From a virus: a stretch of 41,780 bases of DNA. The position numbers and the translations under genes were made by a program. Each line of letters starts with the position of its first letter. Position 1 is the stretch's first letter. Below are positions 26,407 through 32,037 of the stretch, one piece after another. Below the pieces are notes generated by a model. That model was not told where the DNA came from and did no database searches. It worked only from the letters and a program-made list of their open reading frames with translations. The DNA is taken from positions 1-41,780 of IMG/VR virus record IMGVR_UViG_3300036466_000133. One strand, written 5' to 3'.

Positions 26407-26525
26407 CATGGAATTAGAAACAAACGTGAACCATGTCAAAATCGAGCGCGTCAAGCGCAATCCAGAAGACTGATCAACTGAAGTTTTGTCAGGCAATGTC
26501 AGTACAGCGGAAAGGGGATAGAGGA

Positions 26526-27245
26526 ATGAGCAATCTCTCACTTTGGGATAAGGTGCAAAGCACTGACCCGCAATACACCAAGCAGTACAAAGGCGCTGGC
26601 GGATTTTCCGGCACTGCCATCAATGCAACCTATGTTGTCAAGCGGCTCACTGAGGCTTTCGGCAAGGTCGGCACTGGCTGGGGTTACGAGATCCTGGAAG
26701 AGCGTTTTGACGAAGGCGGCCCCATTGATGACGGGAAGGGCAATGTCATCTGTAATTCGTCTCTGCATACCGTCAAGCTCCGGCTCTGGTACAAGGACGG
26801 CGACGAGGTCAGGCACGTAGACCACTACGGCCACACGCCCTATATCAGCAAGAATAAATACGGCATTCAGACCGAAATGGAGCCGGTTAAAAAGTCGGTC
26901 ACCGATGCGCTGAAAAAGGCCGCCTCAATGCTCGGGTTTGGTGCTGATATCCACCTCGGTATGTTTGACGATATCGAGTACGTCCAGGAAGCTCAGAACG
27001 AATCCCTGCTTGCTAAGGCAGAGGACAAGGCAGAAGAAGCCCGCCGCCAGCAGGCCGAGTATGACGAGTTTCTTGAAAAGCATATTGGCTATATCGAAAC
27101 CAGCCGCTCTATGGGTGAGCTTGAGAAAATCTTTACCGCAGCAGTGCGCCGGGCTCAGAGCAAGAAAGACGAGCGCGGCATTATCCGACTGACCAAAGCC
27201 AAAGACGCCAAAAAGGCGGAACTATCAAAAGGTGATCAGCAATGA
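26526..27245 (+). CDS. Rad52-family single-strand annealing protein
   Basis: 239 aa from the ATG at 26526 with GGGGATAGAGGA upstream; an earlier in-frame ATG (26433) has no protein character. Signature: YKGAGGFSGTAINATYVVKR, LRLWYKDGDEVRHVDHYG, then KKSVTDALKKAASMLGFGAD and HLGMFDD, the Rad52/Sak pattern. A charged helical C-terminal tail follows. It anneals single strands during phage recombination, with Gp157 and the SSB genes downstream. Confidence 0.85.
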   Translation: MSNLSLWDKVQSTDPQYTKQYKGAGGFSGTAINATYVVKRLTEAFGKVGTGWGYEILEERFDEGGPIDDGKGNVICNSSLHTVKLRLWYKDGDEVRHVDHYGHTPYISKNKYGIQTEMEPVKKSVTDALKKAASMLGFGADIHLGMFDDIEYVQEAQNESLLAKAEDKAEEARRQQAEYDEFLEKHIGYIETSRSMGELEKIFTAAVRRAQSKKDERGIIRLTKAKDAKKAELSKGDQQ

Positions 27246-27739
27246 GCAAGCTTTACGAAATCTCAGAACAGTATCAGGAGTTGGCCGCGCTGGCCGACTC
27301 CGACGACGAAAACATGAAAGAAGCGGTTGAAACAACGCTTGAGTGTATCGCTGGCGACTTCAACGAAAAGGCCCAGGCGCTCGTGACGGTCGTGCACAAT
27401 ATGGATTCTGACGTTGAAGCCATTGATGCCGAAATCAAACGCTTGCAGGCGCGCAAAACTGCAATCAAAAACCGCCAGGACTCCATGCGGGATTACCTGC
27501 GCGAAAATATGGAGCGCACCGGCATCAAGAAAATATCCTGCCCGCTGTTTACGATAAACTGCGTGGCCGGTCGGGAGATCGCCGTTATCAATGACGAAAG
27601 CGTGATCCCCGATGAATACATGGCCGTTAAGACTGAGATCCGCCCGGACAAGTCGGCCATCGCAAAGGCGCTGAAAGCTGGCGCTGAAATCCCCGGCGTG
27701 TCGCTTGATCGCGCCAAATCATCCATTCGGATTAAGTGA
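27242..27739 (+). CDS. Gp157-family protein
   Basis: 165 aa. N-terminal helical/coiled-coil part (IDAEIKRLQARKTAIKNRQD) and a compact C-terminal part (DKSAIAKALKAGAEIPGVSL, then RAKSSIRIK) match the siphovirus Gp157 family, commonly beside annealing proteins and SSBs. Overlaps the Rad52-like gene by four bases. Confidence 0.85.
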   Translation: MSKLYEISEQYQELAALADSDDENMKEAVETTLECIAGDFNEKAQALVTVVHNMDSDVEAIDAEIKRLQARKTAIKNRQDSMRDYLRENMERTGIKKISCPLFTINCVAGREIAVINDESVIPDEYMAVKTEIRPDKSAIAKALKAGAEIPGVSLDRAKSSIRIK

Positions 27740-27747
27740 GACAAGCT

Positions 27748-28319
27748 ATGGCCACCTACGGCGTAAATCTCAAAATCGACGTATCAAAGATCAAGAAAGA
27801 GCATCTATTCAAGGGTGAAAAAGGCGCCTACCTGGACCTGACCGCGTTTATCAACGTAGACGAGCAAGGCCAATACGGCGACAACGGAATGGTCACGCAG
27901 AACTGGAAGGATCAGCAGAAAGGCGAAGGGCCTATTCTGGGTAATGCCAAGGTGTTCTGGCGTGATGATGGCCATCAGGCGCAGCAAGCGCCTAAGCAGC
28001 AATCAGCGCCAACAGGTAAAATGCCGGAGCCGATTGACGATTTTGATGACGATAAATGAATGTCGCCTGTCGTAGCGATGCGACAGTGAAAACCCCTTGA
28101 ATTGCTGGGAACTCTGACCGGATGAAGCCGAAGACAATCAGCAGCGAAGCCCGAAAGGGAACGTTCAACGACCAGCCGAAAGGCGTACACTCAAGCGAGT
28201 GGAAGCGGGGGGCATCTCACAGAGATGATGATATGGTCTGATCTGCTTGGAAACAGGTAGCTGCCGAAAGGCGGGTTAAGGTTAGCGCCCTTAATCGAAC
28301 ACAATTGATTCCTTTCTGA
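27748..28319 (+). CDS. ssb: ssDNA-binding protein, interrupted by group I intron (exons 27748-28053 and 28308-28319)
   Basis: Exon 1 gives 102 aa with a beta-rich body (YGVNLKIDVSKIKKEHLFKG, YLDLTAFINVDEQGQYG) and an acidic tail PEPIDDFDDD. Unspliced, translation adds one lysine and stops at 28059. Removing 28054-28307 joins exon 2 (ATT CCT TTC TGA) in frame, so the protein ends DDFDDDIPF, the classical SSB tip that binds partner proteins. Spliced product 105 aa. The start is taken at the ATG at 27748; a GTG at 27736 is possible. The body is shorter than standard bacterial SSB and its fold is inferred from the tail and context. Confidence 0.8.
28054..28307 (+). ncRNA. group I intron (IA-like) in ssb
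   Basis: 254 nt. The upstream exon ends in T (28053) and the intron ends in G (28307). P1: exon CGAT (28050-28053) with GTCG (28062-28065), giving the U-G pair at the splice site. P10: GAAT (28058-28061) with exon 2 ATTC (28308-28311). P2: CTGTCG/CGACAG (28067-28086). P3: ACCCC (28092-28096) with the G-run at 28207-28211. P4: TGCTG (28103-28107)/CAGCA (28139-28143). P6 hairpin CCCGAAAGGG. P7: GACCA (28170-28174)/TGGTC (28234-28238). Two small hairpins between P7 and P3 strands (GCCGAAAGGC; CACTCAAGCGAGTG) fit subgroup IA, as in T-even phages. P8: CATCTC/GAGATG (28213-28227). P9-type hairpins follow. No endonuclease is encoded inside. Confidence 0.92.
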
Positions 28320-28341
28320 ATATACCATTTAATGATACAAT

Positions 28342-28363
28342 GCCCTCTCAGGGGGGCTTTTTT
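28342..28363 (+). terminator. rho-independent terminator of recombination operon
   Basis: GCCCTC / GGGGGC (28342-28357) with a four-base loop and then six T. The G-run of its 3' arm sits seven bases before the ATG at 28364 and may double as the ribosome site of the next gene. Confidence 0.8.
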
Positions 28364-28597
28364 ATGACATGCAAAAAACCATCCGAATACCTAACCGCCA
28401 TCCTATCCGGCGAACTGCGCCCAGCAGACACCCCTCCCGCCATCCAATCCTGGCTGCAATTCATCTGCTACCGTATCGCGGTAGACATGCAAGGCCTGCC
28501 CCGCGAGCAACAGCGAGAACGCGCCAGAGAGTACCCTGACGCCGTTTTAGAGATTGTCCGGAAGTGGTATCAGGTGGCACAGAAAAAAGGGGCCTAA
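28364..28597 (+). CDS. hypothetical protein, 77 aa
   Basis: MTCKKPSEYLTAILSGELRP, then a helical segment (QSWLQFICYRIAVDMQGLPR) and a basic C-terminus. No family recognised. The ATG follows a terminator immediately, so translation needs read-through or a new transcript; a TACAAT (28335-28340) upstream could be a -10 box. Confidence 0.6.
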   Translation: MTCKKPSEYLTAILSGELRPADTPPAIQSWLQFICYRIAVDMQGLPREQQRERAREYPDAVLEIVRKWYQVAQKKGA

Positions 28598-28697: not shown

Positions 28698-28860
28698 TTG
28701 ACATCCTCCCCGGCCTGAAGGCCAAGGATTCCTACGGCGCTCAGGCGCGGCATGGAGCCTTACCTGAGTCGCTTTGGTGGGTTCCTGCTGCTGGCGACCT
28801 TATTGCATCACTCACTTCACAGGCGAACCGGGCGTGTCCCGCCCTTAGTATGTTGATCGC
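28698..28860 (-). ncRNA. omega RNA (reRNA) region of TnpB element
   Basis: In the TnpB family the guide RNA comes from the 3' part of tnpB and the right end, and continues into flanking DNA. Here the right-end hairpin and GGAGGATGTCAA end at 28698; the guide would begin at 28697 with CGGTGGCTGTGCGGGG, which is the interrupted gene itself. The 5' boundary is a rough estimate. Confidence 0.6.
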
Positions 28861-29982
28861 GCCGACCGTGTCGGCGTTTTCCTTAAAGCCGCAATCCACG
28901 CAGTGGAACTGGGCCTGGGTTTGGCGGTTCTCTGCCGACACATGGCCGCAGGCTGGACAGGTTCGACTGGTGTTGTGTGGCGGCACCGCCACCAACCACC
29001 CGCCGTGCCATTGGAGCTTGTAGTCCAGTTGGCGCCGGAACTCGAACCAGCCCTGATCCAGAATGCTCCGGTTCAGACCGGATTTGGCCCGGACGTTGCG
29101 CCCGGGTTGATCGACCGTACCGGCCGCTGACGCCGACATATTCCGCACCTTTAAGTCCTCGATACACACCATCGCGTGGTTTTGGCTGATGGTCGTCGTG
29201 GCTTTGTGCAAATAGTCGCGGCGGGCGTTGCCAATCTGGGCATGAATCCGCTGGACTTTAGCTTTGGCTTTCTTCCAGTTGTTGCTGAATTTGGTTTTGC
29301 GACTGAGCGCCCGTTGCGCCTTGCGCAGTCGGGCCTGGTGTTTCTTAAAGCTGTTAAGGGGTTTCAGGTGATCCTCGCCCTCAAACGCCGGCAAGGGACG
29401 ATCAAAGGCGGCAAAGCGAGCCACGCCCAGATCAATGCCAACGGCATCGCCCTTGGGGGTCGGCGTTTCCACTTCTCGCTCAGTCTGGATGCTGACAAAC
29501 CATTTGCCTCCCGATTGACTCACGGTGACGTTTTTCACCGTGCCCAGAACCTCACGGCTGTTGCGGTATCGCACCCAGCCCAGCTTGGGCAGGAACAGGC
29601 GGCCGTTCGCCTGGTCGAGCTTGATTTGTTTGGGGTCGGGGTAGCGAAAGCTGTCGGAGATACCTTTCTTTTTGAACCGAGGGAAATCGGCTCGTTTGGA
29701 GAAGAAGTTGGTGTAGGCCCGCTCCAAATCTTTCAGTGTTTGTTGCAGTGGATGAACCGGAGCCTCCGCAAGCCAGACGGTTTTCGGGGTGTTTCGCCAG
29801 TGGGTGATCTGCTTGCAGAGCCCGGCGTAGTTCAGCTTCTTCTCGCCTTGCTCATAGCGCTGCTTTTGCAGCGCCAGCGCCTTATTGAACACGAACCGAC
29901 AGGAGCCAGCGAAACGGCGCATAAGGCGCTGTTGCTGGCCATCGGGCCGGAGTTCGTATTTGAAGGCTTGCAGGCGTTTCAT
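28741..29982 (-). CDS. tnpB: TnpB RNA-guided nuclease
   Basis: 413 aa, full length. RuvC residues are intact: D184 in VGIDLGV, E275 in CIEDLKVRNM, D371 in NADTVGAINIL. The zinc finger has C342, C345, C361 and C364. The N-terminal HTH-like part (MKRLQAFKYELRPDGQQQRL) is typical. A TATAAT at 30020-30015 lies upstream for its own transcription. No frameshift or missing motif, so it may be active. Confidence 0.92.
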   Translation of the reverse strand: MKRLQAFKYELRPDGQQQRLMRRFAGSCRFVFNKALALQKQRYEQGEKKLNYAGLCKQITHWRNTPKTVWLAEAPVHPLQQTLKDLERAYTNFFSKRADFPRFKKKGISDSFRYPDPKQIKLDQANGRLFLPKLGWVRYRNSREVLGTVKNVTVSQSGGKWFVSIQTEREVETPTPKGDAVGIDLGVARFAAFDRPLPAFEGEDHLKPLNSFKKHQARLRKAQRALSRKTKFSNNWKKAKAKVQRIHAQIGNARRDYLHKATTTISQNHAMVCIEDLKVRNMSASAAGTVDQPGRNVRAKSGLNRSILDQGWFEFRRQLDYKLQWHGGWLVAVPPHNTSRTCPACGHVSAENRQTQAQFHCVDCGFKENADTVGAINILRAGHARFACEVSDAIRSPAAGTHQSDSGKAPCRA

Positions 29983-31056: not shown

Positions 31057-32037
31057 TTAGAGTCGAACGGGCATCACCACGTTATTGCCACCAACAATGC
31101 ACGGCCTGTTAGGCTCAAAAAGCTGAATCTCTATTGTATCATCGCCGCACGCTTTGATTGCGTCGATCAGGTACTTGATCGAAAACCCAATCGTCATATC
31201 CCCTTCGGATTCGCACGAAAAGGCCGCCTCTGCGCCTGAGTTGCTCACCGCTACGGATTCCGGAGACACCTCAAACTTTGCCGTTTCACCGCCAATCTGA
31301 GCCGCTTGCAGCGCTTCCAGAATATCACCTGCACTGGCCTTGATGGTCATAGGCGTGCCAGTCGGAATCACTCGCTTCCAGTCCGGATAGTTGCCCTCGA
31401 CCAGTTTTGTGCTGAATCGCTCGGAGTCGTTTTCGATGATCATCTGATTTTGAGACAGTGAGACCGTGCCAGTCATGCCGATGATCTGGTTAACGGCATC
31501 GTGCGGGATAATCACTTTTCCCTCAAAGCCCAGATCGGCCCAGGCCATCCGGTGCCCGTTAGTCGCCACTGCGTTGCCGTCTACAAGGCAAGCCCCGTTC
31601 AGGTAGTACCGAACGTCATCCGTTGCAACGGCATGGCTGACAGCAGCGAGGGACGCTCCTAGCGCCTCTGCCGAGAACTTCATCGGCTCAGCCGCGCCGT
31701 AATCCGGCTGCGGGAAGTCGGAATAGTTGCCGCAATCCAGCTTGATGCGGCTTTGGCCCTGCTTTACTTGCCCGTCTGTTAACTCAATCTCACCGGCACG
31801 CATGGCGCTAACAGAAGCCGCCAGCTTGGCGGCCTCCGCGGTGAACTGGCAGGGCTCTCCATCCGCATCCATCCGGGCGCTGTAAGTGGCACTACCGTCG
31901 TTGGCGGTTAGCGTTAGCGTATCTCCGTCAAAATCGACGGCGACATGATTCATGATTGGCAGGCTAGCTTTCTTGCCGGCAATCTTCGCCAGCTTTTTCA
32001 TGGCTGGTGCGAGGTTTTCTTTTGTGACTTTGATCAT
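31057..32037 (-). CDS. dnaN: phage-encoded DNA polymerase sliding clamp (DnaN-like)
   Basis: 326 aa, somewhat shorter than the 366 aa of the E. coli clamp. Three-fold clamp pattern: ASLPIMNHVAVDFDGDTLTL in domain 1, ATDDVRYYLNGACLVDGNAV with ATNGHRMAWADL in domain 2, and IGFSIKYLIDAIKACGDDTI with the C-terminal VVMPVRL in domain 3, the usual end of beta clamps. It should form a ring around DNA and tether polymerase. No DNA polymerase is encoded in this window, so it would serve a host polymerase or replace the host clamp. RBS AAGGAATC precedes the start. Confidence 0.92.
   Translation of the reverse strand: MIKVTKENLAPAMKKLAKIAGKKASLPIMNHVAVDFDGDTLTLTANDGSATYSARMDADGEPCQFTAEAAKLAASVSAMRAGEIELTDGQVKQGQSRIKLDCGNYSDFPQPDYGAAEPMKFSAEALGASLAAVSHAVATDDVRYYLNGACLVDGNAVATNGHRMAWADLGFEGKVIIPHDAVNQIIGMTGTVSLSQNQMIIENDSERFSTKLVEGNYPDWKRVIPTGTPMTIKASAGDILEALQAAQIGGETAKFEVSPESVAVSNSGAEAAFSCESEGDMTIGFSIKYLIDAIKACGDDTIEIQLFEPNRPCIVGGNNVVMPVRL

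Follow-up and report, generated by a model that had tools for sequence, protein, structure and literature searches.

Mobile introns are normally bound to one gene family, and those of T4-type phages, Bastillevirinae and SPbeta (td, nrdB, nrdD, bnrdE/F) interrupt catalytic domains. Where such elements settle and how they move has been described in some detail. Group I introns prefer conserved sites (PMC2814812), and introns without an open reading frame (ORF) can be driven by free-standing endonucleases (PMC2814812, PMC3984707, PMC10448857). In the known cases of this collaborative homing (ICP1 terL, T3/T7-like phages and cyanophage; PMC10448857, PMC3984707), an ORF-less intron occupies a conserved target site in a gene of essential function, the endonuclease gene is adjacent in some copies, and the flanks are transferred, flank co-conversion being the expected trace of homing (PMC3984707). 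A conserved site of another kind is the C-terminal tip of the ssDNA-binding protein (SSB), DDDIPF, which is highly conserved, binds partners and is engaged in essential interactions (PMC5872125).

The locus considered here lies in a window of 41,780 bp that is a whole virus record, and it shares with collaborative homing the features listed above. It differs in that the target is an extreme C-terminal linear motif, that the same site is occupied in non-homologous genes, that exon 2 consists of three codons, and that the window copy has no endonuclease. Like the td, nrdB, nrdD and bnrdE/F introns it has an RF00028 core with P7.1 and P7.2, and the core is 72-74% similar at the DNA level to Bacillus phage introns; unlike in those genes, the body of the window protein is complete without splicing, and the window phage (about 42 kb, siphovirus-like) is unlike the T4-type phages. 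The tip DDFDDDIPF is that of canonical SSB (PF00436), and true PF00436 genes (L085, L013 and L018) carry the same intron, although the window protein is itself not PF00436. What is new is that the conserved insertion site consists of a short linear motif found in non-homologous proteins; no paper naming an intron in the SSB tip was found in partial coverage of the literature.

Intron anatomy at the tail of a putative SSB gene

A preliminary description, made from the letters of the DNA alone, had proposed a group I intron within the last codons of the gene and had named a covariance-model search as a check. The sole gathering-level Rfam match within the 41,780-bp window is indeed to the group I intron model RF00028, at 28032-28260 on the plus strand (86.8 bits, the gathering score being 50; E 6.1e-21; the model covered over its full length). 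With the intron left in, the ORF at 27748-28059 encodes a protein ending in PEPIDDFDDDK, the in-frame stop being the second codon of the intron (AAA TGA). Excising 28054-28307 in silico, a plus-strand segment of 254 nt without an ORF of its own, joins GAT GAC GAT to ATT CCT TTC TGA and gives a protein that ends in DDFDDDIPF (..PEPIDDFDDDIPF and stop). The borders previously proposed were thus exact to the base, translation reproduced both of the predicted protein ends, and all of the elements that had been listed (P1 with U.G, P10, P2, P3, P4, P7, P8, two extra hairpins and a terminal G) were found (Table 1).

Table 1. Features of the locus and its upstream neighbours, in window coordinates
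Feature	Position	Strand	Basis
Rad52/22-type annealing protein, upstream gene	26433..27245	+	PF04098 E 5e-7
Siphovirus Gp157 / Mu Gam-like, upstream gene	27242..27739	+	PF05565 E 1.4e-47; phrog_253
Exon 1 of putative phage SSB gene, 102 codons, ends ..PEPIDDFDDD	27748..28053	+	translation; homologues with same start and body
DNA block common to window and L018 (92%), probable transferred tract	28030..28367	+	alignment
P1: exon 28048-28053 GACGAU with guide 28062-28067 GUCGCC; U.G at 5' splice site; one A.C mismatch	28048..28067	+	pairing, complement scan
Group I intron (predicted), 254 nt	28054..28307	+	RF00028 match, junction restoring DDDIPF and stop, covariation
P10 strand GAAU, partner exon 2 28308-28311 AUUC	28058..28061	+	pairing; GGAU/AUCC in L016 and PH357
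P2 hairpin	28068..28085	+	two pairs with changes on both sides
P3, 28093-28099 with 28206-28212	28093..28212	+	one pair with changes on both sides
P4, 28103-28108 with 28138-28143, enclosing P5 and P5a	28103..28143	+	structure
P6 and P6a	28144..28164	+	structure
P7, 28170-28174 GACCA with 28234-28238 UGGUC, expected guanosine-binding helix	28170..28238	+	invariant in four-intron comparison
P7.1 (28175-28184) and P7.2 (28188-28201), IA-type feature	28175..28201	+	one P7.2 pair changed on both sides
P8 hairpin	28213..28227	+	two pairs with changes on both sides
P9, P9.1 and P9.2 hairpins	28243..28295	+	seven pairs with changes on both sides
Terminal guanosine of intron	28307	+	sequence
Exon 2, ATT CCT TTC TGA, Ile-Pro-Phe-stop	28308..28319	+	junction; same terminal residues in homologues
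Second tip-like half site (ATACCATTT, reads I-P-F), just past stop, common to HNH-bearing loci	28322..28330	+	sequence comparison

The pairings at both splice sites were examined in the window and in its relatives. P1 (GACGAU/GUCGCC) forms five of six pairs with the U.G at the splice site, P10 (GAAU/AUUC) forms all four, and the Ile codon covaries with P10 in L016 and PH357. Of all 10-nt windows of the intron, the guide at offset 4 complements the ligated exons GACGAU^AUUC best, with 9/10 pairs; in L016 the guide makes 10/10 pairs with the ligated exons, and its P10 GGAU matches an AUC Ile codon, not AUU. The core from P3 to P8, including P7, is present by Rfam and by helix count. Across four introns (window, L085, L013 and L018) pairing in the named structure is 97.1%; this structure was counted in place of the RNAalifold prediction, since the pseudoknot leads the latter to pair exon 1 wrongly with P7. 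Changes on both sides occur at 13 pairs in these four introns, a number reached in 0/500 shuffles, and sliding the 3' partner by one column lowers pairing to about 40% (33-45%; four introns). The P7.1 and P7.2 hairpins are found at 28175-28201, and from them we would class the intron as IA-type, a description that stops short of a formal subgroup. We regard 28054-28307 as most likely a splicing-competent group I intron, whose predicted excision would restore the partner-binding tip.

The host protein (P0001) resembles little that is annotated. A Pfam search returned no family, and so no PF00436 SSB domain, and the PHROGs comparison gave a weak match to phrog_24909, whose function is unannotated. 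An AlphaFold2 model (pLDDT 77.6) has a beta-rich body of about 75 residues and a low-confidence tail; Foldseek gave no match to the PDB below E 1, and the significant matches in BFVD are to phage proteins that are either uncharacterised or unnamed. The spliced protein does carry an SSB-Ct (an acidic run and [IVL]PF at the C-terminus). Homologues without IPF, which the preliminary description had held to speak against its proposal, are not what was seen: 63 of the 71 distinct relatives on viral contigs end exactly in [IVLM]PF (43 of them in IPF), and a further five have [IVLM]PF just before the C-terminus. Given the tip, the recombination genes upstream and an intron shared with true SSB genes, the window protein (about 105 aa) is probably an SSB, and we refer to it as a putative one.

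The same site in other phages

Copies of the intron at the DD(D)/IPF position number 11 including that of the window, so ten further (10 are distinct, L018 and L022 apparently being a single phage type). In all 11 the insertion follows the GAT of DD(D) and precedes the Ile codon of IPF, with a GATGAT repeat in the H101 group giving a one-codon ambiguity of the 5' site; this sameness of site is partly by construction for L016, L017, L018, L022, L085 and L138, found with tip-containing search patterns, while L013, PH357, P018-4 and 10AMN are free of that bias. The exon-2 IPF frame and its stop are intact in 11/11 copies, and the unspliced frame ends 1-5 codons into the intron in every one of them. 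The carriers belong to three host families that share no detectable sequence similarity: canonical SSB (PF00436/phrog_44), the family of about 105 aa seen in the window, and phrog_2544. Families were assigned by Pfam and PHROGs, and for L016 and 10AMN by alignment to phrog_2544 members. The preliminary description had called the insertion unusual, and the site is; it is no one-off, since the site recurs.

These copies were reached by several routes. L013 is the only other contig matched by an intron-internal 20-mer, and its intron splits a canonical SSB at the same codons (SLPEPADDFDDD before it, IPF and stop after it). Pattern scans, in which the 3' patterns required the terminal G, gave L018/L022 (a second canonical SSB), L085 (a third), L016 and L017 (phrog_2544 type) and Pseudoalteromonas phage H101 (L138); the introns of PH357, P018-4 and 10AMN were reached via similarity to H101. 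Four of the ten further copies are carried by cultured Pseudoalteromonas and Vibrio phages, in which the tail is annotated short or is absent, the genes appearing as short-tail hypothetical proteins or without a CDS, much as the preliminary description had expected of gene annotation. In this way various phage genomes are annotated with truncated SSB tails, and the tip by which these could be recognised as replication-hub proteins is lost from view.

Wider searches added no further copy. A 3' pattern scan with longer gaps gave 24 new loci; a script detected a tip-like exon 1 in none of them, and Rfam found no gathering-level intron in 10 of those 24 loci and L142. The pattern scan of a bacterial and archaeal genome collection (84,980 species) returned 0 matches, so that at that stringency the chromosomal ssb genes of these species show no trace of the intron. 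Plasmids and E. coli genomes showed core-level similarity only and no full intron copy, and a viral scan for phrog_2544 relatives returned just three loci that were already known. K470, qdvp001, 424E50-1, R16F, PS17B-2, pYD6-A and a second 10AMN locus were set aside, as their group-I-like similarity lies beside polymerase, terminase or unidentified genes. Among these, the large terminase subunit of L150 (Vibrio phage vB_VpaM_R16F) is annotated in pieces around group-I-like sequence and probably contains several introns.

Members of phrog_2544 (L152, L262 and L266; about 293 phage records) are proteins of 330-400 aa of unannotated function and candidates for an SSB-type role. Those of ICP1, PaP1, REC1, BS46 and Shewanella phages end in an SSB tip, and both the window family and phrog_2544, which has 293 phage records with ICP1 and PaP1 among them, look like unrecognised SSB-type proteins. 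In L182, L007, L011, L001, L208 and L270 the tails run on past IPF (..IPFAPIGLQYGRNFLHCF, ..IPFAPVGLMHNNNLMHCI, ..IPFVDPYHRNNKLTHCM), and the added residues look similar in several of these different SSB families.

Shared flanks and a neighbouring HNH endonuclease

Genes that lack the intron at the tip and end in [IVL]PF and stop are found in VnaP, qdvp001, PWH3a-P1, ICP1, PaP1, REC1, BS46 and Shewanella 1/4. VnaP, qdvp001 and PWH3a-P1 are 93-96% identical to 10AMN over the aligned body, yet intron-free, and such patchy presence among close relatives is the pattern that a mobile element would leave. The flanks point the same way. Window and L018 are 92% identical over 340 aligned columns (window 28030-28367); for window and L085 the figure is 85%, over 358 columns (28009-28361). 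In both comparisons the protein bodies are unrelated. The tail of the window protein (TGKMPEPIDDFDDD) is likewise closer to that of the canonical SSB L085 (TGQMPEPIDDFDDD) than to those of its own relatives L001 and L002.

A gene for an HNH endonuclease (phrog_2340, E 5e-36 to 6e-41) starts about 45-65 bp past the stop in L085, L018/L022 and L017, and in PH357 an endonuclease-VII type (phrog_1035) adjoins the intron-bearing gene; beside the window gene a free-standing endonuclease is absent. A profile search placed the same HNH gene directly after intron-free window-family genes in L184, L223, L230 and L243, and directly after intron-free SSB-type genes in the cultured phages 4_L372X, F89 g1, KLER1-1 and Mt1B1_P17, these four having been picked from the top of the match list, one because its SSB annotation was visible. 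Relatives of the HNH gene also adjoin other genes.

A second tip-like half site (e.g. ATTCCTTTT; CCNTTY context) follows the stop at 8/11 HNH-adjacent loci versus 3/64 others, a count in which the loci are partly non-independent and the motif was picked after viewing the sequences. It comes after the SSB stop and ahead of the HNH start in L085, L018, L268, L271, L184, L223, L230 and L243, and the window keeps it at 28322-28330, retaining the block shared with L018 up to about the start codon of the L018 HNH gene. The half site could be an operator (autoregulation) or an insertion footprint, and the window may have lost its HNH gene or never had one.

Proposed explanation and alternatives

We consider it highly probable that the window carries an ORF-less, IA-type intron that is a splicing-competent mobile element in the tip-coding DNA of phage SSB-type proteins, probably moved in collaborative homing by an HNH endonuclease. 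It is the tip codons themselves that the intron guide complements (..GAC GAU ^ AUU C..), and from its sequence the RNA is expected to excise itself in the cell, so that DDD is followed by IPF and a protein that would bind ssDNA regains its partner-binding tip. As excision restores the tip, the insertion would cost the phage little. SSBs of different fold families keep the acidic-DDDIPF tip, so the target DNA recurs in non-homologous genes, between which the intron, with about 25-50 bp of 5' flank and about 50-60 bp of 3' flank, would be passed by recombination in a direction that we can only infer. The likely driver is the free-standing HNH (phrog_2340), whose gene lies just downstream of SSB genes and which would cleave the tip site where it lacks the intron. 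This explanation draws on the intron anatomy, the junction in the sequence, the covariation, the one site in three host families, the shared flanks and the HNH adjacency. Counted against it are the missing HNH gene beside the window copy, the A.C mismatch in P1, a host protein without an OB-fold or Pfam SSB match, and the HNH relatives beside other genes.

At about even confidence we go a step further and suppose that the address of homing is a short linear protein motif and not any particular gene. Intron and HNH would both use the acidic-IPF tip DNA, and selection, by holding the tip constant across non-homologous SSB genes, would let them spread from one such gene to another. The recurrence suggests that the tip motif, being short and universally needed, is itself a landing site for mobile DNA. 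An address that is a nine-residue motif common to unrelated proteins would give introns a concrete route between genes.

The preliminary description had read the insertion as a switch for partner binding that leaves DNA binding intact. As a regulatory device in full, programmed retention of the intron would yield a tip-less, DNA-binding SSB, and splicing would set how much of the protein can bind partners in the course of infection. In its favour, partners bind at the tip (PMC5872125), one T4 intron splices in a manner that depends on growth state and translation (PMC11878797), and the unspliced frame stops early in 11/11 introns with the body left intact; yet any group I intron within a coding gene is expected to bring such stops, and the patchy distribution, with relatives 93-96% identical over the aligned body and intron-free, is that of a mobile element. 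In L016 (449-472), moreover, the unspliced frame reads WDDDKYPF and stop, supplying a replacement tip, K-Y-P-F-stop, so that both RNA forms would end in PF. This suggests that tip loss is harmful, and it would fit a buffer against the cost of such loss. With no sign of regulated splicing in the data, we consider the switch unlikely and unsupported, while the other parts of that interpretation (intron, borders, early stop, tip restoration and missed annotation) stand. Any role in infection of a tip-less SSB made from unspliced RNA becomes directly testable.

The A.C mismatch in P1 might instead point to a degenerate intron that has lost splicing in a phage living with the tip-less protein. The full core, the terminal G, the intact P1/P10 guide, covariation over four copies and the IPF frame and stop preserved in 11/11 copies make this very unlikely. 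It is also quite unlikely that splicing uses the upstream GACGAU (28036-28041) to give a product ending in PIDDIPF: Rfam did place P1 there, and the hexamer occurs twice, in frame, in exon 1, but the P1/P10 geometry at 28053/28054 is what relatives conserve, among them L016, where a U is lacking at the upstream position, and we prefer 28053/28054 for that reason. The window further resembles an IStron, a class that joins a group I intron to an IS605-type element (PMC4227781), in having an IS605-type TnpB gene (28741-29982, minus strand) about 430 bp downstream of the intron. A single chimeric element is vanishingly improbable, and we rejected it on anatomy: no transposase gene lies inside the 254-nt intron, which closes at 28307 before TnpB begins; TnpB lies outside the intron, runs antisense to it and has no relation to it; the right end of TnpB (..GGATGTCAAC, 28697), like its flank, is distinct from the SSB site; and the relatives of the intron have no TnpB gene in the downstream 0.9-2 kb examined.

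The TnpB gene itself is of IS605 type, with its right end at about 28697 and no TnpA noticed. Its end motif GGATGTCAAC is followed by GGTGGCTGTGCGGGGAGATTGCC, presumably the guide; this reads into the flank of the element itself and shows no match to the SSB tip. Further along, at 31057-32037 on the minus strand, the phage encodes a homologue of the DNA polymerase III beta clamp (PF02767, PF02768, PF00712).
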